DNA of 64,000 nt, from positions 62,001 through 126,000 of the forward strand of contig JAGVLK010000007.1 of NCBI GenBank assembly GCA_020049835.1, written 5' to 3'. Origin of the DNA: Candidatus Babeliales bacterium. GTDB lineage: Bacteria > Babelota > Babeliae > Babelales > Vermiphilaceae. Below, piece by piece: positions 27,500 to 59,504 of the stretch; within the stretch, counting starts at the first letter, position 1, and each line of letters starts with the position of its first letter. The position numbers were made by a program, and so were the translations under genes. The notes under the pieces were generated by a model that saw only the letters and a list, made by a program, of their open reading frames with translations, was not told where the DNA came from and made no database searches.

Positions 27500-27656
27500 T
27501 GTGTAATCCTTTACAATAATTATTTATTATGCAGCGTATCATAGCATGCAGTGGTTAGCAATTGCTTGCATAAGCTTTGACAAAAATATAGATTTATATA
27601 ACATAAAATTAATAACATTACTCCATATCTTACCTACGAATATGTATGAGAAATCA

Positions 27657-29081
27657 ATGAAACATTTTAATACTGGTGCGCTGTCGATGCTCATCGCTCT
27701 ATTGGGCACAACTCTATGCCATGCAGCAGCAGGAGAACCTATAAAATATACTGACAATGTCGTGGGCTATCGTTTCAAGGAGAATATATCATATACGCTT
27801 GTGCAGTTAGAACCTAAGGCACCATATGAATGTTCTGAATTAACGGAAGAAGAAGCTAAGGAATGGTTTCCACCAAGGCCTGAAGTGGTTACATATGCCC
27901 ATTATGATGATTGGGATAGTCACGTAGATAATTTTTTTGGCGGGCCATTTCAAGCTAAAGCCAAGTGCGATACGGACAACGCTCAGGAGATGATGAAGCG
28001 TGATTATGATTGGTTTGTGAAGTTTGATAGCGAGCGAAAAGCGGATAATCCTTGGGAATGTATGGTTGTACCGGTATCTCTTGAGCAAAATCTCATAGTT
28101 GCGGATAATAGACTTTCTATGCAAGATCCCAATCTGGGGCAAGGGCTTGAAGCACAACGAAAAGAACTTACCAAACGCAGGGTTGCTAAGATTGAGCTAT
28201 ATCGTATTGGTCTATTTGCTGAAATTAAAGGCAGGGAGCGTTGCCCTACCATAGGTTGTCAGTTCATCAAGGTGGAAACTCATTCAGGATTGCCGTATAT
28301 TCTTGTCAATGCTGAACCAGTAGAAGCATGGGAAAAGCTTGATGTTCTCGAACAACGCCATGTAATCCCTGAACCATTGGGCGATGATCCAGCGGGTGAA
28401 TTTTATGATGCCTATATTAAAAATCCTCAAAAAGCTTTAACGGACGATTATGTGAATGCGGACCATGTATTGAATCGCTATATAGATATTTTTTACCGAT
28501 CGAATGTAACTGTAGGTGTTGTCGCTGTTCCGGTTGTAGTGACGGCACTTCAACGTCTTCTGACAAAGCGAAAATCACGACTTCTTGTGCTAGGCATTAC
28601 CGATTTTGTGCGTGAAGGGATAGTGCAGAATCTTGCAAACCTTCGCATGAAAAAAGATATGGATTTTTTTAATACGCTCTGTGAGTTGCAAAATGCTCGT
28701 GGTGCTGTGCCAGTGCAAGCAATTGTACAAATACCTACCGTAGAAAACATTGCACCGACCACCAAAACCACAAACAGATTACCACGCGTGGGAGGATTTT
28801 TTGCGGGATTAGGATGGGCGGGATCCGTTTGGTTTGCTATCTATCTTTTGCGCACATGCCAGGATGGCGTACGCATAGCAAGCGGTTGTGCTTCAGCTGC
28901 TGCAGGTATGGCATTTATGTTTGCGCGACATAAACTTGCAAACGAAGGTATTAATCACAAATTTTGGCGTGGCGTGCGCGATGGTGCAGGTGTTGGTGCA
29001 GTGCTTGGCGGTGGATTGTTTGCTGCACATGATACACCTGCAGTTCAAAAATTATTCGCAATGGCGGCGCGTAATAATTGA
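27657..29081 (+). CDS. Exported protein, tandem family B, member 1
   Basis: 474 residues from ATG 27657, signal peptide about 1-23 with CHAAA cleavage region. Domains by comparison with its neighbours: an N-terminal unit with PYECSELT, WFPPRP, FFGGPF and RDYDWF; a middle unit with YRIGLFAEI, cysteine pair CPTIGCQF and RHVIPE; and a C-terminal hydrophobic unit (about 385-470) with FFAGLGWAG, AFMFAR and AHDTPAVQKL. The hydrophobic C-terminus has two or three possible membrane helices. Function unknown. The leader GAAATCAATGAAACATTTT is repeated before member 2. Confidence 0.8.
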   Translation: MKHFNTGALSMLIALLGTTLCHAAAGEPIKYTDNVVGYRFKENISYTLVQLEPKAPYECSELTEEEAKEWFPPRPEVVTYAHYDDWDSHVDNFFGGPFQAKAKCDTDNAQEMMKRDYDWFVKFDSERKADNPWECMVVPVSLEQNLIVADNRLSMQDPNLGQGLEAQRKELTKRRVAKIELYRIGLFAEIKGRERCPTIGCQFIKVETHSGLPYILVNAEPVEAWEKLDVLEQRHVIPEPLGDDPAGEFYDAYIKNPQKALTDDYVNADHVLNRYIDIFYRSNVTVGVVAVPVVVTALQRLLTKRKSRLLVLGITDFVREGIVQNLANLRMKKDMDFFNTLCELQNARGAVPVQAIVQIPTVENIAPTTKTTNRLPRVGGFFAGLGWAGSVWFAIYLLRTCQDGVRIASGCASAAAGMAFMFARHKLANEGINHKFWRGVRDGAGVGAVLGGGLFAAHDTPAVQKLFAMAARNN

Positions 29082-29113
29082 TATAGAAACATAGTATAGG
29101 TTGTACGAAATCA

Positions 29114-30619
29114 ATGAAACATTTTACTACCGCTGCTCTATCGATGCTTATCGCTCTATTGGGCACACCATTGTGCCATGCAGCAGCAGAAGAACCTCTG
29201 CAATATTCAAAGTTGAATGGTGTTTATGATATCAATGGCTACCGCTACAATCTTTGGAAGCCGAAGTTTAAACAGCCATATGAATGTTCTGAATTAACTG
29301 TTGAAGAGGATCGATCATGGTTTCCACCAAGGCCGAAAGTGGTTGATTTGGATCACTACGAGCAATGGGAGCATCATGTAACTACAGTTTTTGGTGGGCC
29401 ATTTCATGCGCCAGCAGAATGTGACACATCTAATGCTTTAGCGATGCTGAATCGTGATTATGCTTGGTTTATACAACGTAATCCGCAGTTGGGAACTTGG
29501 GCCAGCGAGTGCGATAATCTTCTTGATGTGCCAATATCACTCCAGCAAAATCTTAGAAACGATGGTAACTTCCTGTTAATGCATTTACCGCAATATGGGC
29601 CGGCTCTGCAAGAAACGAAAAAAAGATTTACCGCGTCACGAGTCAATAAAATCGATCAATATCGTATTGGTCTGCTTGCTGAAATTAACGGTAGAAGGCT
29701 TTGCCAGCGAATAAATTGCAGGTTTATGAGTGTGGAAACTTATTTAGGATTACCGTATATTCATGTCGTGGCTGAACCGCAAAAGGCTTGGGAAAACGTT
29801 GATGTGCCTGAAGAGCGCCATGTGATTCCTGAATCGTTGGACAAGAATAGTATGCTTGCATATTTTGACACATATGTTGTTGAAAACCAACATGTGCAAG
29901 CAGTTGATTATGAACGAGCAAGAGAAACATTAGATCGTTATAGAGAAATAGCGAGTACATTTCAAGTAAGAATAGATACTGTTACTAGTCCTGTACATAC
30001 AGTTATTATTCCTGTAATAGTTGCTGCAATAAGTCGCCTCGTTACGGCTCAGTCAGGTCAATTAACTTTGTCCACTGATACTGACTCAGTGCTTAATGCA
30101 ATTGCAGGGCATCCTGCAAATATTCGCCGGCAAAAAGATTTTAATTTTTTTCGCCTGCAACTGCAGAATGCTCACATTGTTCCTCGTTCCATGCAGGGCA
30201 ATAGGGTTGCAATTAGACCAGCGCCAGAGGACGAGCAACCAATTCCTTCATCGACACAAATGACTGCAACTGCAAATAGAGCTATTCGCGCTCACATGCA
30301 AACAAGCCCTTCAACATTCTATAATGTATTGTATCCATCTTGGTGGGGTGGATTTTTTGCCGGCCTCAGCTGGACTGGATTGACGTGGGCAGCGTTTTTT
30401 CATTTGACCCCATATCTTCGCTCACGCCATGAGAGTATAGTTACAGCCGCATGTATGATTCATACACTTACGGCATGTATGCCATACTTATATGCGCATC
30501 GTAAGGTTGCGCAATCAGATAGTAATCATATTTCTTCAGACGGCATATGTAATGGAGCTCATATAGGTATGATTATGGGTCTAGGAATAAATGTCGCGAG
30601 CATAAGAGAGGCCTCGTAG
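29114..30619 (+). CDS. Exported protein, tandem family B, member 2
   Basis: 501 residues, with a signal peptide nearly the same as in member 1 (MKHFxTxALSMLIALLGT). The N-terminal and middle units are well conserved: PYECSELT, WFPPRP, VFGGPF, RDYAWF, YRIGLLAEI, CQRINCRF, RHVIPE. The C-terminal hydrophobic unit keeps GGFFAGLSW but diverges after it and lacks AHDTPAVQKL, with a longer linker before it. It follows member 1 by 32 nt, without a terminator. Confidence 0.8.
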   Translation: MKHFTTAALSMLIALLGTPLCHAAAEEPLQYSKLNGVYDINGYRYNLWKPKFKQPYECSELTVEEDRSWFPPRPKVVDLDHYEQWEHHVTTVFGGPFHAPAECDTSNALAMLNRDYAWFIQRNPQLGTWASECDNLLDVPISLQQNLRNDGNFLLMHLPQYGPALQETKKRFTASRVNKIDQYRIGLLAEINGRRLCQRINCRFMSVETYLGLPYIHVVAEPQKAWENVDVPEERHVIPESLDKNSMLAYFDTYVVENQHVQAVDYERARETLDRYREIASTFQVRIDTVTSPVHTVIIPVIVAAISRLVTAQSGQLTLSTDTDSVLNAIAGHPANIRRQKDFNFFRLQLQNAHIVPRSMQGNRVAIRPAPEDEQPIPSSTQMTATANRAIRAHMQTSPSTFYNVLYPSWWGGFFAGLSWTGLTWAAFFHLTPYLRSRHESIVTAACMIHTLTACMPYLYAHRKVAQSDSNHISSDGICNGAHIGMIMGLGINVASIREAS

Positions 30620-30671
30620 CTAAAGTTAGTTGCATTGATAGCGCACACGAAGTAATGTTTAATAGGAAATC

Positions 30672-31826
30672 ATGAAACAGATTAATGGAATTAAGATCGT
30701 AGCTTTGACCGCGCTCATGGTAGGTTGTAATCTATTTGCAGCAGCAAAATCGAGAAATGAAGAATATCAAACACGCTGTGAAAAATATGGGTGCACATTT
30801 GCCCGGTACAATGATCATTATTCATTTATACAAGCAAATCGGCTTCCGCAGCATGATTGGGAAAAGCCTGAGGCGCCAGAAAAGCGGCATATAGAATTTA
30901 TACAAAATCAGTTTATACCATTTTGTAATACGACAAGTAATCTCACTGAAATTTCAAATTTTATTCTATCTCATGAAGGGAAATTTCCTGTAATAAGATT
31001 TATTTCGCAACAACCTATAGTAACAGTTGAAGATCAAGATCATGCACATCAAGTATTGGCCGATAGTGCTCGGATATTTAAAGAATCAAAAAAATTTGGT
31101 TGTCCAATTGTGGTTGACGAAGTATCGCTCAATCTTCATGAATCTAGTACAAATGTAGAGCTCACAAAACCTGATGGCGGGCTAGTTGAAAGCATTATTT
31201 CCAAATTAGCTAAGATTCGTGCACAAAAGGATAGCGATTTTGGTTCTATATTGCGGCATATAGCTCTTGTACGAGTTGGCACTAGTGAAGGTGCATCGGT
31301 GAGATGTATCAAATTTAGAGATGCATGCATTAGACTATTTGACAATGGATATGTGAGACCAAGCTCATTACCCTCAGCGGCACCTCCAGTATATACAGAT
31401 GAAACGATGGCAAGCAATGAAGATGATGATTCTGAGGGCAACTCATCACGGCATGATGGCATGATTGCTGAAATAATACCAGAGCAAGGACAGTTGCCAC
31501 GCGTACGTAGAACAGTTGATCCATGGTGGTGGAGCAGCGGTTTTTTTTCTGGGGCAGGACTTTCATTACTTGCAGGATTAAGAGCTTATGCTTCGCTCCC
31601 GAGCGATAATGGCGGACGTGTAGCAAGTGGATTTTCTGCTGCAGCGGCATTCATTGCATTTATGTTTGCGCGGTATAATCTTGCACAATGTGAAAACGGT
31701 GATGATTATTGGCAGGGCATGCAGTATGGTGCAGCTGCCGGTGGGGCGCTCGGCGCTGGATTGTTGCTCGCCCATGATACGCCTGCAGTGCAAAAGTTAC
31801 TGGCGATGACAGCACGAATGAGCTGA
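30672..31826 (+). CDS. Exported protein, tandem family B, member 3 (shorter)
   Basis: 384 residues, signal peptide about 1-24 of different sequence from members 1 and 2. It lacks the PYECSELT N-terminal unit but keeps the middle unit (CEKYGCTF, DWEKPEAPEKRHI) and the complete C-terminal unit (FFSGAGLSL, GRVASGFSAAAAF, AFMFARYNLA, AHDTPAVQKLLAM). The C-terminal unit is closer to member 1 than member 2 is, so segments have been exchanged or lost independently. Charged and Ser-rich linker at about 240-265. Function unknown. Confidence 0.78.
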   Translation: MKQINGIKIVALTALMVGCNLFAAAKSRNEEYQTRCEKYGCTFARYNDHYSFIQANRLPQHDWEKPEAPEKRHIEFIQNQFIPFCNTTSNLTEISNFILSHEGKFPVIRFISQQPIVTVEDQDHAHQVLADSARIFKESKKFGCPIVVDEVSLNLHESSTNVELTKPDGGLVESIISKLAKIRAQKDSDFGSILRHIALVRVGTSEGASVRCIKFRDACIRLFDNGYVRPSSLPSAAPPVYTDETMASNEDDDSEGNSSRHDGMIAEIIPEQGQLPRVRRTVDPWWWSSGFFSGAGLSLLAGLRAYASLPSDNGGRVASGFSAAAAFIAFMFARYNLAQCENGDDYWQGMQYGAAAGGALGAGLLLAHDTPAVQKLLAMTARMS

Positions 31827-31916: not shown

Positions 31917-32522
31917 ATGCCATTTGAACTTAAACCCTTGCCGTATGCTTTTGACGCACTTGAACCCTACATTGATGCTAAAACAATGGAGATTCATCAT
32001 GACAAGCATCATGCAGCGTATGTAAACAATCTGAATGCAGCGCTTGCACAACATCCGGAATATCAAAGCTGGTCACTAGAAAAACTGGCAACTGCATACG
32101 ATCAACTTCCTGCTGACATTGCACAAAAAGTGCGTAACAATGCCGGTGGTGATAGCAACCATACCTTTTTCTGGCAACTCATGGGTCCAAAGGGTGGTGG
32201 TTTACCGCATGACAAAATGCTTGCTGCGATCAAGAAAGAGTTTACCAATTTCGAGACCTTTCAAGCACAGTTTAATGAGGCGGCAAAGACGGTATTTGGC
32301 AGTGGTTGGGCATGGTTATGCCGAGATAAAGAAGGGCGCTTGCGCATTACAACAACGCCAAATCAGGATTCGCCTTTAAAACAGGATATGCATCCTATAC
32401 TTGGCCTTGACGTATGGGAGCATGCATATTATCTTAAGTACCAAAATCGGCGCCCTGATTATATTCAAGCGTGGTGGCACGTGATTAATTGGGGTTTTGT
32501 TGAAGATTGTCTAGAGTTGTAG
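31917..32522 (+). CDS. sodB: Superoxide dismutase, Fe/Mn family
   Basis: 201 residues. The enzyme turns superoxide into oxygen and hydrogen peroxide. Metal ligands are visible: His27 in the [12 protein letters not shown] segment, the second His in SNHTFFW, and Asp and His in [11 protein letters not shown]. The [17 protein letters not shown]-terminus is typical. ATG 31917 has GGAG at 31905-31908; a longer frame from 31884 adds a non-homologous tail. Iron versus manganese use cannot be told securely from sequence alone, so the symbol is tentative. In an intracellular bacterium it should protect from host oxidants. Confidence 0.93.
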
Positions 32523-32570
32523 TTTTTTATATTTTTTGTTTTTTCTTATACATCAATTTTTTATATATAT

Positions 32571-33340
32571 TTTCTTTTTGCGCCTGCCGCGCGGGCGTCA
32601 AGGAGGTGTCTTGTCACACCTCCTTAACAATCCTGGACACAAAAGGGGCACCTTTTGAATCCCTACGCTCCAACTCAGGCCTCACGCATGAAGCATGCGT
32701 TCATGCCTTGCGGTTCCGCTAATACGGTCCGCAACAACTTACAATTTACACTTTTAGTCAATCGATCTTCGTTAGCAACTTAACACTATCTCTTGATGAG
32801 CGCTTTATCATAAAAGGGGGAACTTTTTATCCTTCCAGCAGAGACTGGAAGGACAGTGATTGTTATCGGATTATTCGGGATTCCAGCTAGAAACATGCAA
32901 ACCCTTTGCGGGTACTAGCTCCTGTCCGCCGGAGCTTTATGCGAAGGCTGGATCGGCCAGCTGAACTGCTACCTGATTTTTACATTATTACGATCTACAG
33001 TTGTAAGCGACATGCCCAAAGTTAAATATCATTGGTTTGTATAGTACAGCAACTAGCACTGTAAGAATTTGCGTACACTTGCTTAAAAGGTAATGTTAGA
33101 ACGCTGACGAAGATCGGTTGATTAACATTGCAGGTGGCAAGTAATTGCGGACCGTATTGAGCACAACCAAAGGCATTCCAGCCGTCGCCTTTGGCTATGG
33201 CGGACAGGGATCGCATGCTTCATGCGTGAGGCCTGATTTTGTGCGTGGGTTTCAAAAGGTCCTCCTTTTGTGCCCGGGGTTGCCAGGGGAGGGTGGCAAA
33301 ACCCTCCCTTGGTGCCCGCGCGGCTAGCGCAAAAAGAGAA
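32571..33340. mobile_element. Hairpin-array element, copy 1 (about 750 bp, non-coding)
   Basis: It is bounded by CTTTTTGCGC (left) and GCGCAAAAAG (right), which are inverted. Inside lie, in both arms, CCGCGCGGGC-type ends, a 9-10 bp hairpin, CAAAAGG-N4-CCTTTTG, CGCATG-3 nt-CATGCG, and a module with GGCTATGGCGG. The right arm repeats the left in reverse. Copy 2 at 53243-53995 matches its reverse complement, including the middle segment (CAGCTGAACTGCTACCTGA). No convincing gene is present, so it would be non-autonomous. It fills the interval between sod and lysS. Confidence 0.8.
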
Positions 33341-33428
33341 AAACAAGAGAAAAATAGATAAAAAAATTAAATCAGTTAAACTAAAAAAAGATCATATAAA
33401 CCCTTAAAAGAACTTAAAAAGATCTTCC

Positions 33429-34904
33429 ATGATAGAGACAAAACATGCCGAAGGCACCTCCGAGCATCAGTTACGTATCCAAAAAGTAGAAAAATTAGCC
33501 GCATTAGGCATTTCAGCATGGCCGGCGGTAAAACCGGTTAATGCCACCTGCCAACAGGTACATGATGAATTTAAAGATGAACAAACATCGCCTAATTATG
33601 AAGTTTCAGGCCGTATTTTAACGATGCGTGAGCATGGCAAAACGATGTTTGCAACCATTCAAGATCGTAGCGGCCGCTTGCAGGTATATTTAAAAAAAGA
33701 TGACCTTGGCGAGCAACTGTTTCAGTTCATTGTAGATTACATCGATATTGGTGATATCGTATGGGTTAAAGGAACTTCATTCCGAACCAAAACCGGTGAA
33801 GTTACTTTAAAAGCGGAAGATCTGAGCTTACAAAGTAAATGTTTATATCCATTGCCGGAAAAGTTTCATGGGCTTGCTGATGTTGAGACAAAATATCGTC
33901 AGCGCTACCTTGATTTGATTTCTGATCTGGATACCCGTAAACGCTTTCACATTCGTTCAAACATACTGCGTTATATGCGTGATTTTTATGATGAGCATGA
34001 GTTTATCGAAGTAGAAACTCCTATGTTGCATCCAATTCCCGGTGGTGCAGCAGCAAAACCGTTTGTTACGCGCCATAATGCCTTAGATATGGAACTGTAT
34101 CTACGTATTGCACCTGAGCTTTATTTAAAGCGCTTGGTGGTGGGTGGGTTTGAACGCGTGTATGAAATTAACCGTAATTTCCGCAACGAAGGTGTATCAA
34201 CACGCCATAATCCTGAATTTACCATGGTGGAATGTTACATCGCTTATAAAGATTATCAATGGATGATGACCTTTATTGAGCAGCTTATCCAATTTATTAT
34301 TAAAAAATCAGGCTTAAACTTACAGATACCATTTGGCGAGCAGACCATTGATTTTAGCCATTTCAATCGCATCAGCATGAAAGATGCCGTGATCAAGTAT
34401 GCTGAGATTCCAGCACAACGACTTGATAATGATATCGATGCAGTTTTAAAAGAGCATAAGCTTGTTCCTGCTAATAAAAATGCTTCCTGGGGTGAAAAAC
34501 TGTTGGTACTGTTTGAAGAAATCGTTGAGAAAAAACTTATTCAGCCTACGTTTGTTATCGATTACCCGATTGAAATTTCACCGCTTTCAAAACGTGATGC
34601 TAATAATCCTGAAATCGCAGCCCGTTTTGAGTTGTTTATTGCGGGTATGGAAATTGCCAATGGTTTTAATGAGCTTAATGATCCGTTCGATCAAGCGGCA
34701 CGCTTTCATGAGCAGGCGCAAGCGCGTGCTTCCGGCGATGCAGAAGCACATTACTATGACGCGGATTTTATTTTAGCGCTCGAATATGGCTTGCCGCCTA
34801 CTGTTGGTGCAGGTATCGGAATCGATCGTTTGACTATGTTGCTTTCTAACACTTTATCTATTAAAGATGTGATACTCTTTCCTACCTTAAAGCGTAAAGA
34901 GTAA
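33429..34904 (+). CDS. lysS: Lysyl-tRNA synthetase, class II
   Basis: 491 residues. It charges tRNA-Lys. The N-terminal OB-fold anticodon-binding domain (about 55-145) is followed by the class II core. Motif 2 (FERVYEINRNFRNEGVSTRHNPEF, about 236-259) and motif 3 (GAGIGIDRL near residue 465) are clear. The METPMLHPIPGGAAAKPF segment (VETPMLH) is the class IIb motif 1 area. The stop codon lies 4 nt before recJ, so lysS, recJ and cmk form an operon. Confidence 0.97.
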   Translation: MIETKHAEGTSEHQLRIQKVEKLAALGISAWPAVKPVNATCQQVHDEFKDEQTSPNYEVSGRILTMREHGKTMFATIQDRSGRLQVYLKKDDLGEQLFQFIVDYIDIGDIVWVKGTSFRTKTGEVTLKAEDLSLQSKCLYPLPEKFHGLADVETKYRQRYLDLISDLDTRKRFHIRSNILRYMRDFYDEHEFIEVETPMLHPIPGGAAAKPFVTRHNALDMELYLRIAPELYLKRLVVGGFERVYEINRNFRNEGVSTRHNPEFTMVECYIAYKDYQWMMTFIEQLIQFIIKKSGLNLQIPFGEQTIDFSHFNRISMKDAVIKYAEIPAQRLDNDIDAVLKEHKLVPANKNASWGEKLLVLFEEIVEKKLIQPTFVIDYPIEISPLSKRDANNPEIAARFELFIAGMEIANGFNELNDPFDQAARFHEQAQARASGDAEAHYYDADFILALEYGLPPTVGAGIGIDRLTMLLSNTLSIKDVILFPTLKRKE

Positions 34905-51437: not shown

Positions 51438-53207
51438 ATGAACAGAAGTAGATTTTTTGTACTGTTAGTAGGATTTTCATTTTTGAATGTGCGTTGCCAG
51501 GAGCCGATTACGCATCAGCTCCAGTGGGATGCAGATGGTAAGCATGGTGTGTTGACCGTTGCATTTGCCATGGACGCAGATGATGCATTGTACAAAGAGT
51601 ACACCCATGTGGTGTGCGATCATGAGCATGTACAGCTGGGTGATTGTCAAACTGATGCCGAAGCGGTCATGATATATGATCCTATTTTTAAAGAGAACAA
51701 AGCTGCCTATTTTAATACCGTGACCATGCAGGTACCTGTGCAGGTGATGCAACCGATTGAACAGGCGCATGTACGTTTTACCTATTATACAAAATCTATC
51801 GGGCGCATACAGGAGCATAATGTAACTATGGTGCCACCAACGCATGCAATCGTACTTGAATCGGTACAAACGGCAGTGGATGCTGAGGCTGAAATTGAAC
51901 ATGCAACGGAAGATGGTTTTGTTATGGATGAGACAACGTACGATGAAGGTGAGTCATTGTACTGTACTTTGTCACATGTAATTGAGGATACCAGTACCGT
52001 TTGGTTACGGTTATTGTTGGTGTTCTTGCTTGGTATGTTGTTGAGTTTAACGCCTTGCATTTATCCGATGATTCCTATCACCGTGGGGATTTTGCAAGGG
52101 CAAGGCACTGCATCATTTGGTAAAAATCTATTTGTAAGTTTGTGTTATACTGCCGGTGTTGCAACTACATTTGCTTGCATGGGTTTATTCGCTGCCTATA
52201 CCGGAAGCCTCTTTGGCACGGCGTTGCAGCATCCTTTGTTTGTGCTCGGGCTCGTGTTGTTGTTAGCCTATTTTGCCGGTTCTATGGTGGGATTATATGA
52301 TATGTATATTCCCCGATTTCTGCAGCCTTCAAATTCTACTGCGCGCGGTGGATCGCCCGTGGCAGCGTTTATTTTTGGTGCATTAAGTGGCACCATTGCA
52401 TCGCCATGTGTTTCTCCCGGCTTGGCGCTCGTGCTTGGTATGGTTGCAAAATTAGGCAATCCGCTCTATGGATTTATGCTGTTGTTTGCATTCGGTACCG
52501 GTTTAAGTATGCCGTTACTTATTATCGGCACATTCTCCGGATCACTTAATTTGTTACCAAAAGCCGGCATGTGGATGGTGGAGATTAAACGCTTTTTTGG
52601 TTTTGTGATGTTTGGTATGTGCATACATTTTCTTTCCCCTATACTTTCAGGATTTGTTACGGCGTTATTGTTCACCGCATTATTTGCTGTAGTAGGACTG
52701 TACTATCTGTATGTTGGTAGCAAAAACAGAACATTGGGCATGCGCATGCTCGCCTCCGGTATAGGATGCGTTCTTATTGCAATTGCGGTTATGTCTGCGT
52801 ATGTTGCAGTGCGTGCATTGTATTATCCTGAGCGTTGTGCTGTTGTGGGCATCTGGACAACAGATTATCAATGCGCGATTAACCAAGCGCGCCATGAGCA
52901 TAAGAAGCTGCTTATTAAAGTGGAAGCGCCATGCTGTTCATTGTGTCGTGTGATTAATACAAAATTCTTTGCGCAAGAGTCGGTACAAGAGATTTTGCAA
53001 CAGCATTATGTTGCGCTTGTGGTTGATGGTAGTGATACCAGTAACCCGGATATTAAAGGTTTGATTGAGCGTTATGCTGTTATCGGTTTTCCGACGGTGA
53101 TTATTGTTGATGCAGATGATTTAAGCATGTTGCAAAAATGGACTGGTGATGTGCATAAATTTTCGCTCAAAGAGTTTGAGATGCAATTATTGAAGTTTGT
53201 TTTGTAA
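51438..53207 (+). CDS. dsbD: Thiol:disulfide interchange protein, DsbD family
   Basis: 589 residues. DsbD passes electrons from cytosolic thioredoxin through the membrane to periplasmic partners. A signal peptide (about 1-20), an N-terminal periplasmic domain with paired cysteines, then eight membrane helices (about 190-450) carrying the redox cysteines in TPCIYPM and SPCVSPG, and a C-terminal thioredoxin-like domain (about 475-589) with a CxxC site in CCSLC and cis-Pro in GFPTVI. It would supply reducing power for the many cysteine-containing exported proteins encoded nearby. Confidence 0.93.
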   Translation: MNRSRFFVLLVGFSFLNVRCQEPITHQLQWDADGKHGVLTVAFAMDADDALYKEYTHVVCDHEHVQLGDCQTDAEAVMIYDPIFKENKAAYFNTVTMQVPVQVMQPIEQAHVRFTYYTKSIGRIQEHNVTMVPPTHAIVLESVQTAVDAEAEIEHATEDGFVMDETTYDEGESLYCTLSHVIEDTSTVWLRLLLVFLLGMLLSLTPCIYPMIPITVGILQGQGTASFGKNLFVSLCYTAGVATTFACMGLFAAYTGSLFGTALQHPLFVLGLVLLLAYFAGSMVGLYDMYIPRFLQPSNSTARGGSPVAAFIFGALSGTIASPCVSPGLALVLGMVAKLGNPLYGFMLLFAFGTGLSMPLLIIGTFSGSLNLLPKAGMWMVEIKRFFGFVMFGMCIHFLSPILSGFVTALLFTALFAVVGLYYLYVGSKNRTLGMRMLASGIGCVLIAIAVMSAYVAVRALYYPERCAVVGIWTTDYQCAINQARHEHKKLLIKVEAPCCSLCRVINTKFFAQESVQEILQQHYVALVVDGSDTSNPDIKGLIERYAVIGFPTVIIVDADDLSMLQKWTGDVHKFSLKEFEMQLLKFVL

Positions 53208-53242
53208 TTTTTTTATATTTACTTTTCTTTATATTTTTTCTT

Positions 53243-53995
53243 ATGCGCCTGCCGCGCGGGCGTCAAGGAGGTGCCTTGTCGCACCTCCTTAACAATCCTA
53301 GACACAAAAGGAGGGCCTTTTGAATCCCACGCTTCCACTCAGGCCTCACGCATGCAGCATGCGATCCCTGTCCGCCATAGCCAAAGGCGACGGCTGGAAT
53401 GCCTTGCGGGTCCGCTAATATGGTCCGCAATAACTTGCCACCTGCAATGCTCATCAACCGATCTTCGATAGCGTTCTAACATTTCCTTTTAAGCAAGCAT
53501 ACGCAGGTTCTAGAGCTGGTTGTGCGCAACTTCTTAGAATTATTTTGTTAAAGTCAGGTAGCAGTTCAGCTGGCCGTAGCTAACCCTGCAAGGGTTTGCG
53601 TGTGCCTAGCTGGTGTTCGTAGCGGGAAAAAAGAGGTTTTAAAAGGAGAAATCTTCTCCTTTTATGATAAAGCGCTCATCAAGAGATAGTGTTAAGTTGC
53701 TAACGAAGATCGATTGGCTAAAAGTGTAAATTGTAAGTTATTGCAGACCTTATTAGCTGATTCGCAAGGCATTCCAGCCGTCGCCTTTGGCTATGGCGGA
53801 CAGGGATCGCATGCTTCATGCGTGAGGCCTGAGTTGAAGCGTAGGGATTCAAAAGGTCCTCCTTTTGTGTCTCGGATTATTAAGGGCGTTGACCCAGGCT
53901 TCGCACAAGGCTACGCCGGGCAGGCTAAGAACGCCCTTAATGCCCGCGCGGCCCGCCGTCGCTCTTCGAGCTTTGTCGAGGCACGGCAGGCGCAT
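53243..53995. mobile_element. Hairpin-array element, copy 2 (about 750 bp, inverted)
   Basis: The ends TATGCGCCTGCCG and GGCAGGCGCATA are inverted. The element matches copy 1 at 32571-33340 in reverse orientation: the middle of copy 2 (GTCAGGTAGCAGTTCAGCTG) is the complement of the copy 1 middle. Each arm shows the string of small hairpins, including CAAAAGG-N4-CCTTTTG and CGCATG-3 nt-CATGCG. It fills the 847-nt interval between dsbD and the hibernation-factor gene. No transposase or other gene is present. Confidence 0.8.
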
Positions 53996-54035
53996 AAAAA
54001 AATATATAGAGAAAAATGAATTAAGAAGTTAAATA

Positions 54036-54063
54036 AAAAAGTAGTGAGGATACGCTAATCCTC
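54036..54063 (-). terminator. Terminator overlapping the hibernation-factor stop codon
   Basis: GAGGAT (54046-54051) and ATCCTC (54058-54063) pair over a 6-nt loop. On the minus strand it runs into ACTACTTTTTT. Confidence 0.5.
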
Positions 54064-54492
54064 AAAATCCTCTTCTTCATCATCAAACTCAAAATCAAAA
54101 TCTTCATCCTCAAACTCTTCTTCCTCTTCCTCATCACTTTCATGACGTCCACCAAATTCACCGGTTTCGCTTGTTTTTACGCGCTCTTTGCGTGCATCAA
54201 CTTGTTTTCGTTTTTCTTCATGCAACAAACGAACCATGACATCAATAACATGATCTAATTCTTTATAAAATTCTGGACCTTCATGATGTGTAATTAAATC
54301 ATAATGCGGTGAACGTATATGCAGTTCCACCCGATTGTGGCCATGATTTTTGGAAGCTTCCAATATAAGATCGATTGTTACCGGATCACGTTCATGAGAG
54401 ATAATATCAAACACTTTGCGCATGGCATCATGTGCATAATTTTCAATAGAAGCGACCGGTTCCATATGTCTAAAAACGACACGCATATTCAT
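54055..54492 (-). CDS. Ribosome hibernation factor (HPF/RaiA family) with acidic tail
   Basis: 145 residues. The N-terminal domain (about 1-100) has the beta-alpha-beta-beta-beta-alpha pattern of HPF/YfiA (RaiA), including an initial MRVVFRHM strand and the DPVTIDLILEASKNHGHNRVELHI region, and would sit on the small ribosomal subunit in inactive ribosomes. The long C-terminal domain of long HPF is missing; instead there is a tail of about 35 residues made almost only of Asp, Glu and Phe. GGAG lies before ATG 54492. The tail is unusual for the family. Confidence 0.78.
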   Translation of the reverse strand: MNMRVVFRHMEPVASIENYAHDAMRKVFDIISHERDPVTIDLILEASKNHGHNRVELHIRSPHYDLITHHEGPEFYKELDHVIDVMVRLLHEEKRKQVDARKERVKTSETGEFGGRHESDEEEEEEFEDEDFDFEFDDEEEDFED

Positions 54493-55794: not shown

Positions 55795-55848
55795 AAAGGG
55801 GTGAAGTAACCTTTTACTAACCTTGTTAAACAAACATATGGATTGTAT

Positions 55849-58482
55849 ATGAAAAAAACAGATAAAAACGGTTTTTATTTCTCAGGATATAAAAATCTCC
55901 TTCTTGCAGCAGTCATTATCCTCGTTTCAGTATCATTTTTAACCACCTTAGACTATTCATCCAGAATTGAGGATATCAACTACAGCAAATTTACCCGTTT
56001 AGTAGCTGATCAAAAAGTCAAAAAGCTTTATGTAGTCGGCCAAGAGGCACAAGGGATATTGCAAGACGATACCCATTTTGCTGTCCGCTTGCCCGAAGGC
56101 ACCAATTGGAAAGATCTGGTTCAAGATTCTTCTATCGATGTCACCTTTGGTGCAGCAAGCAGCCAATCATCCTATTGGTTTATTTTCTCCTTCTTGTCGT
56201 TTTTGATAGCATTGCTCGTTGCATGGTATTTCTTGCGCCAATCACGTGGCTCCAATAATAACAGCGGTGGCCCGAATATCTTTAATATGGGCAAAAGCCG
56301 TGCACGCCTGTTTATGCCATCTACCATTCAGATTAAATTCAGCGATGTTGCCGGTGCCTATGATGCCAAACATGAGCTGCAGAATGTGATTAACTACCTC
56401 AAGCACCCTGAAAAATATCGACGTATTGGCGCTAAAATGTCACGCGGTATTTTATTAGTGGGTGAGCCGGGTAATGGTAAAACATTGCTTGCAAAGGCGG
56501 TTGCCGGTGAAGCTAACGTGCCATTCTTTTCTATTACCGGATCAGATTTTATTGAAGTGTTTGTTGGCGTTGGCGCAGCTCGTGTACGCGATCTGTTTGC
56601 CCAAGCGCGTAAACATGCACCATGCATAATATTTATCGATGAAATCGATGCAATCGGCCGCACACGCGGCAGTGGCATCGGTGGTGGCCATGACGAACGC
56701 GAGCAAACGTTAAATCAGTTGCTTACTGAAATGGATGGTTTTGCAACGACCGGTGGCAATGTTATTGTACTTGCCGCAACTAATATGCCGGAAGTGCTGG
56801 ATAAAGCATTATTGCGCCCGGGACGTTTTGATAGCCGTATCGATGTGCCATACCCGGATGAAGTTGCACGTCATATGATTTTAAAGATGCATGCAAAAAC
56901 ACTTAAACTAGCTGAAGATATCGATTTAGAACAGCTGGCAAAAGATACTGCAGGCTTTAGCGGTGCAGAAATTGCCGATTTAATGAATAAAGCAGCCGTA
57001 CAGGCGGCACGCAATAACCAAGACATTGTTACAAATGATGATATTCGCGCTGCAAAACATATTATTGTTACTTCGCAAAAGGCGATTAAACCGGCGCTTA
57101 CGGGTGAATCGAGCCTGGCGCGTATGTACAAACCGGCGCAGATAAAAACTACGTTTGCTTCAGTTGCAGGGCTTGATAACGCTAAAGAAGAGTTGCAGGA
57201 TATCGTTAATTTCCTTAAAGATCCGGTTACCTTTAGCCGCCTTGGAGCACAAATTAGCAAAGGTGTGTTGATGGTCGGTGAGCCGGGTAATGGTAAAACA
57301 TTATTAGCCCGTGCTATGGCCGGAGAAGCAAACTGCCCATTCTTTAGCATTAGTGGTTCTGAATTTATTCAAAAATATGTAGGTGTTGGTGCTTCACGTG
57401 TACGTGATCTGTTTGCACAAGCACGTAAACACAAACCATGTATTATATTTATCGATGAAATTGACAGCATTGGTGGCCATCGCCGGGATGAAAGTCCAGA
57501 GCAAAGCCAAACATTAAACCAATTGCTTACCGAACTTGATGGTTTTGATACCAAAGAAGAGGCGATTATTATTATTGGTGCAACCAACCGTCCTGATACC
57601 TTAGATAAAGCGCTCTTGCGCCCCGGTCGTTTTGATCGGCAAGTACAGGTACCAAGCCCATTGCTTAAAGATCGCCTTAAGATTTTACAGCTGCATGCAA
57701 AAGATTTCAAAATCGACCCATCAGTGGATCTTGAACGCATTGCACGTGGCACCCCAGGATTTTCCGGCGCAGATTTAAAGAACATTATTAATGAAGCTGC
57801 CGTTATTGCAACCAAGAATCCTGAGCAAGAATCTATCACTATGGCGGAGTTTGAAGAAGCGCGTGATAAGATTATGGTGGGTAAAACTACCAAGAGCATG
57901 GATCGCACGCCGGAAGAGCTCAAAGAGACAGCATATCATGAAGCTGGCCATGCCTTGATGCGTGTATTGCAGCCAGAACTTGCTATGCCATTGCATAAAG
58001 TGACCATTTTGGCTCGTGGCGATGCTCTGGGTATTGCCTGGGCATTACCCGAAGCGGATCAATTAGGGCGCTCAAAAGATGAAATGCTTGCTGAAATTCG
58101 TGTTGCTATGGGTGGCAGAGCGGCAGAAGAGCTGGTATTTGGCAAACAGCTGACCGGTGCGCATAGCGATCTTAAGAATGCTACGCATAAAGCACAGGAA
58201 ATGGTGCGTTATCATGGTATGGATAGCGATTTAGGTCCGGTGGTGTATGATGTAACCCATCGCCATAGCTATTCGCAAAAAACAGCTGAAATGATCGATT
58301 TGGCCGTGAAAAACATTGTGCAATCGGCGCTTGATCAGGTTAAAAAGGCATTGCAAGATAACCGTGATAAGCTTGATCGCTTGGCCAATGCGCTTTTAGA
58401 GCATGAAACACTTGATGCAGTAGAGGTTTATGAGCTTTTGGGTATGCCGGCTCGCCAAGATAAGCGGTTTGTGCAAAGCTAA
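55849..58482 (+). CDS. ftsH: FtsH-family membrane protease with two AAA modules
   Basis: 877 residues, about 230 longer than ordinary FtsH (about 610-650). The N-terminus is normal: a membrane helix (about 14-33), a periplasmic domain and a second helix (about 120-140). Then come two complete AAA modules in a row. Module 1: Walker A GEPGNGKT (205-212), Walker B IIFIDEID (260-267), LLRPGRFD arginine finger, pore FVG. Module 2: Walker A 477-484, Walker B 532-539, LLRPGRFD, pore YVG. The M41 protease domain has zinc motif HEAGH (697-701) and the later ligand region [12 protein letters not shown]. Both modules look active. ATG 55849 is preferred over the TTG two codons earlier. The second module is joined directly to the protease, as in normal FtsH; the first is the extra copy or the two are a tandem duplication. 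Confidence 0.95.
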
Positions 58483-59344: not shown

Positions 59345-59504
59345 TTTTGTCATCCTCCCAGCCGTCGCCTTACGGCTATGGCGGGCAAGCTGCTTGCGGG
59401 GATCCAGTGTTAAATTAATAAAATCTAATCATCGTAGCTCTTTGATAAAAATACTAAAATATAATTCAGGCAATACTGGATCCCCGCAAGCGAGGATGAC
59501 AAAA
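59345..59504. repeat. MITE-like element with 13-bp terminal inverted repeats
   Basis: The ends TTTTGTCATCCTC (59345-59357) and GAGGATGACAAAA (59492-59504) are exact complements. Inside, CTTGCGGGGATCCAGT (59393-59408) pairs exactly with 59475-59490. The left half carries an extra module with GTCGCC and GGCTATGGCGGGC. The core resembles the GCGGGGATCCAG palindromes dispersed in many bacterial genomes. No coding capacity. Confidence 0.85.

Follow-up and report, generated by a model that had tools for sequence, protein, structure and literature searches.

Dispersed intergenic elements with inverted three-hairpin ends in a Candidatus Babeliales bacterium and in related genomes

Introduction

BIME and RIME sequences are mosaics of palindromic modules that contain further, smaller palindromes, and integron attC cassettes combine folded ends and sequence-variable stems with the carriage of genes. 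Bacterial MITEs are about 100-200 bp long and possess TA ends and target duplications (PMC2229807). The REP and TIR families are associated with tyrosine transposases, REPs being additionally marked by a GTAG or CGTC tag (PMC3733652), and some TIR families are double palindromes (PMC3116915, PMC3733652). In the phylum studied here, the genome of Babela massiliensis contains one IS4 transposase gene and neither phage nor plasmid genes (PMC4378268). The words palindrom- and intergenic are absent from the paper on this genome (PMC4378268) and from further papers on the phylum.

In this study, a stretch of 64,000 nucleotides from a Candidatus Babeliales bacterium (hereafter called the window, to which all coordinates refer unless a contig or locus is named) was analyzed together with the complete 1.44-Mb assembly and with genomes of the same phylum. 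An earlier note on this DNA had described two inverted hairpin-array elements of ~750 bp at 32571-33340 and 53243-53995, each with inverted arms, a GC-rich core and a unique middle.

Results

Both elements are real. They are long imperfect palindromes of ~750-830 bp, and the inverted arms and the GC-rich core are visible in the sequence at the positions named above. Copy 1 (32540-33370, plus strand, including its flanks) is located between sodA (end at 32522) and lysS (start at 33429), copy 2 (about 53205-54021, minus strand) between the convergent genes dsbD (end at 53207) and an hpf-like gene (54055-54492, minus strand). The limits are thus wider than first given, because the T-rich flank of an element is the inverted copy of its A-rich flank, and both are found again at other copies. 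In copy 1, these flanks occupy 32540-32579 (T-rich, plus strand) and 33331-33370 (A-rich, plus strand), each with an approximate outer limit. Copy 2 resembles the reverse complement of copy 1, as the earlier note had claimed, with ~70% identity over 783 bp, and the match extends to the middle in part. The middle is not unique, since some copies have the same one (the copy on C22 shows ~80% identity along the entire element) and others have another. Folding of the 770-nt copy 1 yielded -384 kcal/mol compared to -234 kcal/mol (sd 9.7) for shuffled sequences (z = -15.5). A 101-aa ORF in copy 2 sits within the palindrome and gave no evidence of being a gene.

Each end is composed, from the outside inward, of a T-rich tract and three consecutive hairpins (H1, H2 and H3), which makes hairpin array a fitting term. 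A covariance model of the end (R1) matched the left end module of copy 1 at 32567-32664 (plus strand, 106.8 bits), where H1 lies at 32580-32592, H2 at 32597-32628 and H3 at 32640-32657, all on the plus strand. The right end module (33246-33343, minus strand, 95.4 bits) contains H3 at 33253-33270, H2 at 33283-33312 and H1 at 33318-33330, likewise on the minus strand. The two end modules of copy 2 are at 53232-53329 (plus strand, 104.2 bits) and 53843-54006 (minus strand, 78.8 bits), the second having H1 and H2 loops lengthened by small palindromes. Small palindromes that resemble REP sequences (TGTCCGCC..GGCTGGA type) are nested in copy 1 at 32921-32952 and, in its right arm only, at 33177-33208 (both plus strand). 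Another one was found at 59358-59387. Palindromes of this type are dispersed in this genome and in the order, where they occur nested inside elements.

The sequences of the hairpins have diverged and their pairing has been kept. H1 reads GCGC-CTGCC-GCGC in this genome, including the left end of copy 1, and CACGC-TCGCC-GCGTG in a relative; H3 reads CAAAAGG..CCTTTTG here and CCAACA-TGC-TGTTGG in a relative. H2 has a variable stem with a loop near TCTTGTCA. All three hairpins of the left end of copy 1 belong to the covarying positions. In the first 11 aligned ends, whose alignment was built without reference to structure, covariation amounted to 0.405 vs 0.174 after shuffling. For 68 ends, in an alignment that was fitted to the model and therefore leans towards it, covariation was 0.682 compared to 0.176 after shuffling and at most 0.161 when the partners were slid; 93.2% of the cells were paired and two-sided compensatory changes occurred at all 23 of the 23 base pairs. 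The structure of the end is maintained by compensatory change across the phylum.

The non-Watson-Crick pairs in H2 are distributed unequally. Read inward, H2 contained 36 A-C but two G-T pairs (23 vs 1 if distinct stems are counted), determined with a stem finder that scored both kinds equally. On the opposite strand, the A-C pairs become G-T or G-U. Hence, the constraint on H2 seems to act on the strand reading from the centre to the outside, at both ends of the element. No asymmetry of this kind was detected in H3 (8 vs 7) or in the long arms (G-U 106 vs A-C 89; p = 0.25, where p-values overstate the number of independent events since the ends are related by ancestry). The counts for H1 were set aside because its pairing register is ambiguous.

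A search of the whole assembly and of relatives, which the earlier note had proposed, disclosed a family. R1 matched 18 times in this genome. Since the starts of contigs C2, C8, C12 and C13 have ~97 bp of the element in common, four of these matches were assigned to two left ends, and nine elements were counted, including the two of the window. Seven of them possess both ends, and two break off close to the middle. In the copies with readable neighbours, the flanking genes vary from site to site. Arms on the same side of different copies showed an identity of 0.907, compared to 0.848 for the two arms of one copy and 0.840 for arms from opposite sides of different copies. It follows that the left arms and the right arms form two lineages that have travelled together, i.e. 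the unit has spread as a whole. Homogenisation between arms was considered as a general process and rejected, as the two arms of a copy resemble each other no more closely than do opposite-side arms of different copies. Only a nested palindrome at one site is common to both arms, in copy 2 and in the copy on C2.

At a threshold of E <= 1e-4, R1 detected the ends in 28 of 101 phylum genomes, where a plus and a minus match frequently form a pair at a distance of roughly 250-650 bp. The specificity of the model was checked in part on ~213 kb of secA, lysS and dsbD loci, which had been picked by gene and not by model. There, R1 matches below E = 0.001 were confined to this genome, the three species of genus g21 and G006, each of which had been positive in the phylum search before. 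A pattern search for the H3 motif in GTDB genomes detected the MAG contig JAKBEL010000007, which is the same sequence as contig C22 of the relative G020, and three contigs from an Oscillospiraceae MAG; a scan of viral contigs for this motif gave no match. The Oscillospiraceae MAG yielded 11 R1 matches (E <= 0.01), some as inverted pairs, with scores far below those of this genome. To judge from these similarities, the ends in Oscillospiraceae and in the phylum are likely to be related by common descent. At loci L102, L104, L105, L216 and L221 of this MAG (RGIG2819, goat omasum), which is assigned to another phylum, the ends follow the same order as here, H1, H2, H3, AATCCC.

Orthologous sites without the element exist for both window copies, as the proposed comparison of empty sites revealed. 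In 13 relatives, sodA adjoins lysS with a gap of 29-183 bp and without a credible R1 match; in this genome the gap comprises 906 bp. Similarly, in 10 relatives dsbD adjoins the hpf-like gene in convergent orientation, and R1 gave no match there. The opposite case is the 3' end of secA, which is accompanied by an element in the three species of genus g21 but not in this genome. As the relatives belong to other genera, these comparisons give presence or absence and not the insertion joint. Judged by the element-free junctions, both window copies are probably insertions rather than elements that the relatives have lost. The search for target-site duplications, which had also been suggested, was negative in five complete copies, whose flanks are of low complexity and for which there is no exact empty site to compare with. 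At the sodA-lysS junction of a further genus (G005, L244), a different inverted pair of small palindromes of the CCTTCGATAC..CTCAGGACGAACGG type was observed.

The earlier note had also raised the possibility that the two elements recombine and invert the segment from lysS to dsbD. Copies 1 and 2 are exactly identical over 59 bp in inverted and over 67 bp in direct orientation, and recombination is possible. However, the proposed inversion is not supported. In relatives, sodA usually adjoins lysS and dsbD usually adjoins the hpf-like gene, and the assembled gene order at the two elements is therefore not the product of an inversion there. The dsbD-hpf block (51438-54492) is oriented relative to lysS opposite to seven relatives (G020, G026, G010, G021, G022, G017 and G004), with breakpoints that lie elsewhere than at the two elements.

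The elements of the phylum measure between about 120 bp and 3.5 kb. At the lower extreme, a 122-bp element in G020 contains hardly more than two H1 and two H2 hairpins. Neither window copy has a gene inside, as the earlier note had stated, but this is no general property of the family, since two other copies carry genes. In the copy on C8, two tandem paralogs of 184 and 197 aa (40% identical) are located between the arms and resemble secreted proteins, a type that was judged from the look of the N-termini. The 12-bp direct repeat TTAACATTATTA is present at both borders of this two-gene insert (L083, 375-386 and 1626-1637). The 3.5-kb element of G098 encloses two tandem paralogs, likewise of secreted type, of 529 and 289 aa between inverted arms of 358 bp with 91% identity. 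None of the cargo proteins in C8 and G098 matched a Pfam family above the cut-off. Two truncated copies (C3 and C13:141745) also end near the TTAACATTATTA point.

Thirty-two elements had two assignable neighbours, 16 of them in convergent, three in divergent and 13 in same-strand contexts. The excess of convergent over divergent contexts (p = 0.004) was calculated within this set of elements. The location at gene 3' ends probably reflects selection against the disruption of promoters, or a choice of target.

Some other genes in and around the window may be mentioned. Three tandem genes for secreted-type proteins (511, 501 and 384 aa) lie directly upstream of sodA at 27546-31826. The 511- and 501-aa products have an N-terminal sequence in common, and none of the three has a Pfam match. 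FtsH usually contains one AAA domain. The FtsH-like ORF at 55843-58482 (879 aa) has two of them, preceding a single M41 peptidase domain. A gene for a transporter of the ATP/ADP type is present in this genome as well.

Discussion

It is fairly probable that the elements belong to one family of mobile elements that is dispersed over intergenic sites and, to judge from the copies examined, non-autonomous, with inverted three-hairpin ends behind a T-rich tract. The earlier note had arrived at a non-autonomous mobile element, and this proposal is supported by the copy number, the unrelated flanks of the nine copies, the element-free orthologous sites and the spread of the unit as a whole. The two gene-carrying copies and the enrichment at gene 3' ends complete this picture. 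A transposase inside the element, for which the Y1 family was searched, was not found in any copy examined. Presumably, an enzyme supplied in trans would recognise the folded ends and move or copy the entire unit, and captured genes would move along with it.

The main alternative interpretation, which we consider rather unlikely, is that the ends act as functional RNA. Transcripts reading through the element would carry the far end, read outward, so that H3, H2 and H1 come to lie near the 3' end of the transcript, where they would stabilise or process it. With one end in each orientation, both genes of a convergent pair would be served, and dispersal would be secondary. The strong fold, the covariation, the prevalence of convergent over divergent contexts and the G-U pairs of H2 on the outward strand at both ends are in accord with this idea. 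On the other hand, G-T is less destabilising than A-C in DNA too, and the asymmetry of H2 is therefore no proof of RNA. Moreover, H3 and the long arms lack this asymmetry. A classical terminator is at odds with the absence of a U-run after the outward hairpins: in both directions, the hairpins have T-tracts before and A-tracts behind them. Finally, a fixed RNA gene would not be expected to have ends up to 3.5 kb apart around genes, or to be missing from the corresponding junctions of relatives, and the usual pairing of the ends does not favour an RNA role either.

Returning to the mobile element, a much more far-reaching version of this explanation is unlikely. The family might represent a mobile cassette system of the phylum, common to at least one Oscillospiraceae genome, in which a predicted, undescribed enzyme would recognise the inverted three-hairpin ends as folded single strands, reading outward at both of them, and secreted host-interaction genes would be shuttled between intergenic sites. 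An element that is distributed phylum-wide beside gene ends, and some copies of which carry secreted-type genes, would mean that a source of variation in obligate intracellular bacteria has been overlooked. With the covariance model and the element-free sites, the family can be searched for and its mobility can be tested.

As to the kind of transposition, an origin as MITE of a DDE transposon, of the ERIC, Correia or RUP type, appears improbable. Inverted ends, intergenic dispersal, strong secondary structure and a majority of copies without coding capacity would suit it well. However, no target duplication was seen, each end comprises three covarying hairpins, and the size reaches ~830 bp here and 3.5 kb elsewhere, compared to about 100-200 bp for such elements (PMC2229807). 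We regard it as highly improbable that the elements form a REP or TIR family mobilised by a Y1 transposase of the IS200/IS605 type (RAYT or TIRYT). Hairpin ends and a location at gene 3' ends are features of REP and TIR families too (PMC3733652), small REP-like palindromes are nested within the elements, 36 of the 101 phylum genomes contain Y1 genes, and in G063 REP-like palindromes flank a Y1 transposase gene (L289). Yet this genome is devoid of a Y1 gene, and none of 30 Y1 loci possesses an R1 end within up to 1.5 kb on each side. Co-occurrence of R1 and Y1 in 11 genomes, with 10 expected, does not go beyond chance. Folding of the outward strand at both ends would, in addition, involve opposite genome strands, unlike a one-strand mechanism. 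At L291, a Y1 locus flanked on either side by an H3-like motif, an autonomous relative was considered and discarded, the second motif lying just upstream of a second Y1 start. An assembly error or a simple segmental duplication, suggested by the several contigs that begin within the element, is refuted by the distribution: nine copies have differing flanks, and ends of this architecture occur in 28 genomes.

The statement of the earlier note that the family is not described under a known name agrees with the database searches: nothing credible was found in Rfam at gathering or relaxed thresholds (the best sub-threshold match in the element was mgtC_leader with 21.1 bits vs 48, E = 0.19), and plasmid and phage records contained no similar sequence. 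In general terms, the elements share with BIME and RIME the mosaic of palindromic modules but are distinguished by fixed inverted three-hairpin ends, a phylum-wide distribution and the occasional gene cargo. With integron attC cassettes they have in common the folded ends with variable stems and the carriage of genes; unlike those, they surround their cargo with a pair of inverted ends, and no array was seen. Similar to REP/REPIN-RAYT and TIR-TIRYT systems (PMC3116915, PMC3733652), they are palindromic intergenic repeats often located downstream of coding regions, but Y1 is absent from this genome and from the vicinity of R1 ends in the phylum. ERIC, Correia/NEMIS and RUP (PMC2229807) are likewise dispersed in intergenic regions, bounded by terminal inverted repeats, strongly folded and devoid of a transposase of their own. 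Those elements have TA ends and target duplications, of which no duplication was seen here, and the elements of this family depart from them in reaching 3.5 kb, compared to about 100-200 bp, in their three covarying hairpins per end and in their ability to enclose genes. This comparison did not show the family to conform in every respect to the definition of MITEs or to that of REP and TIR sequences.
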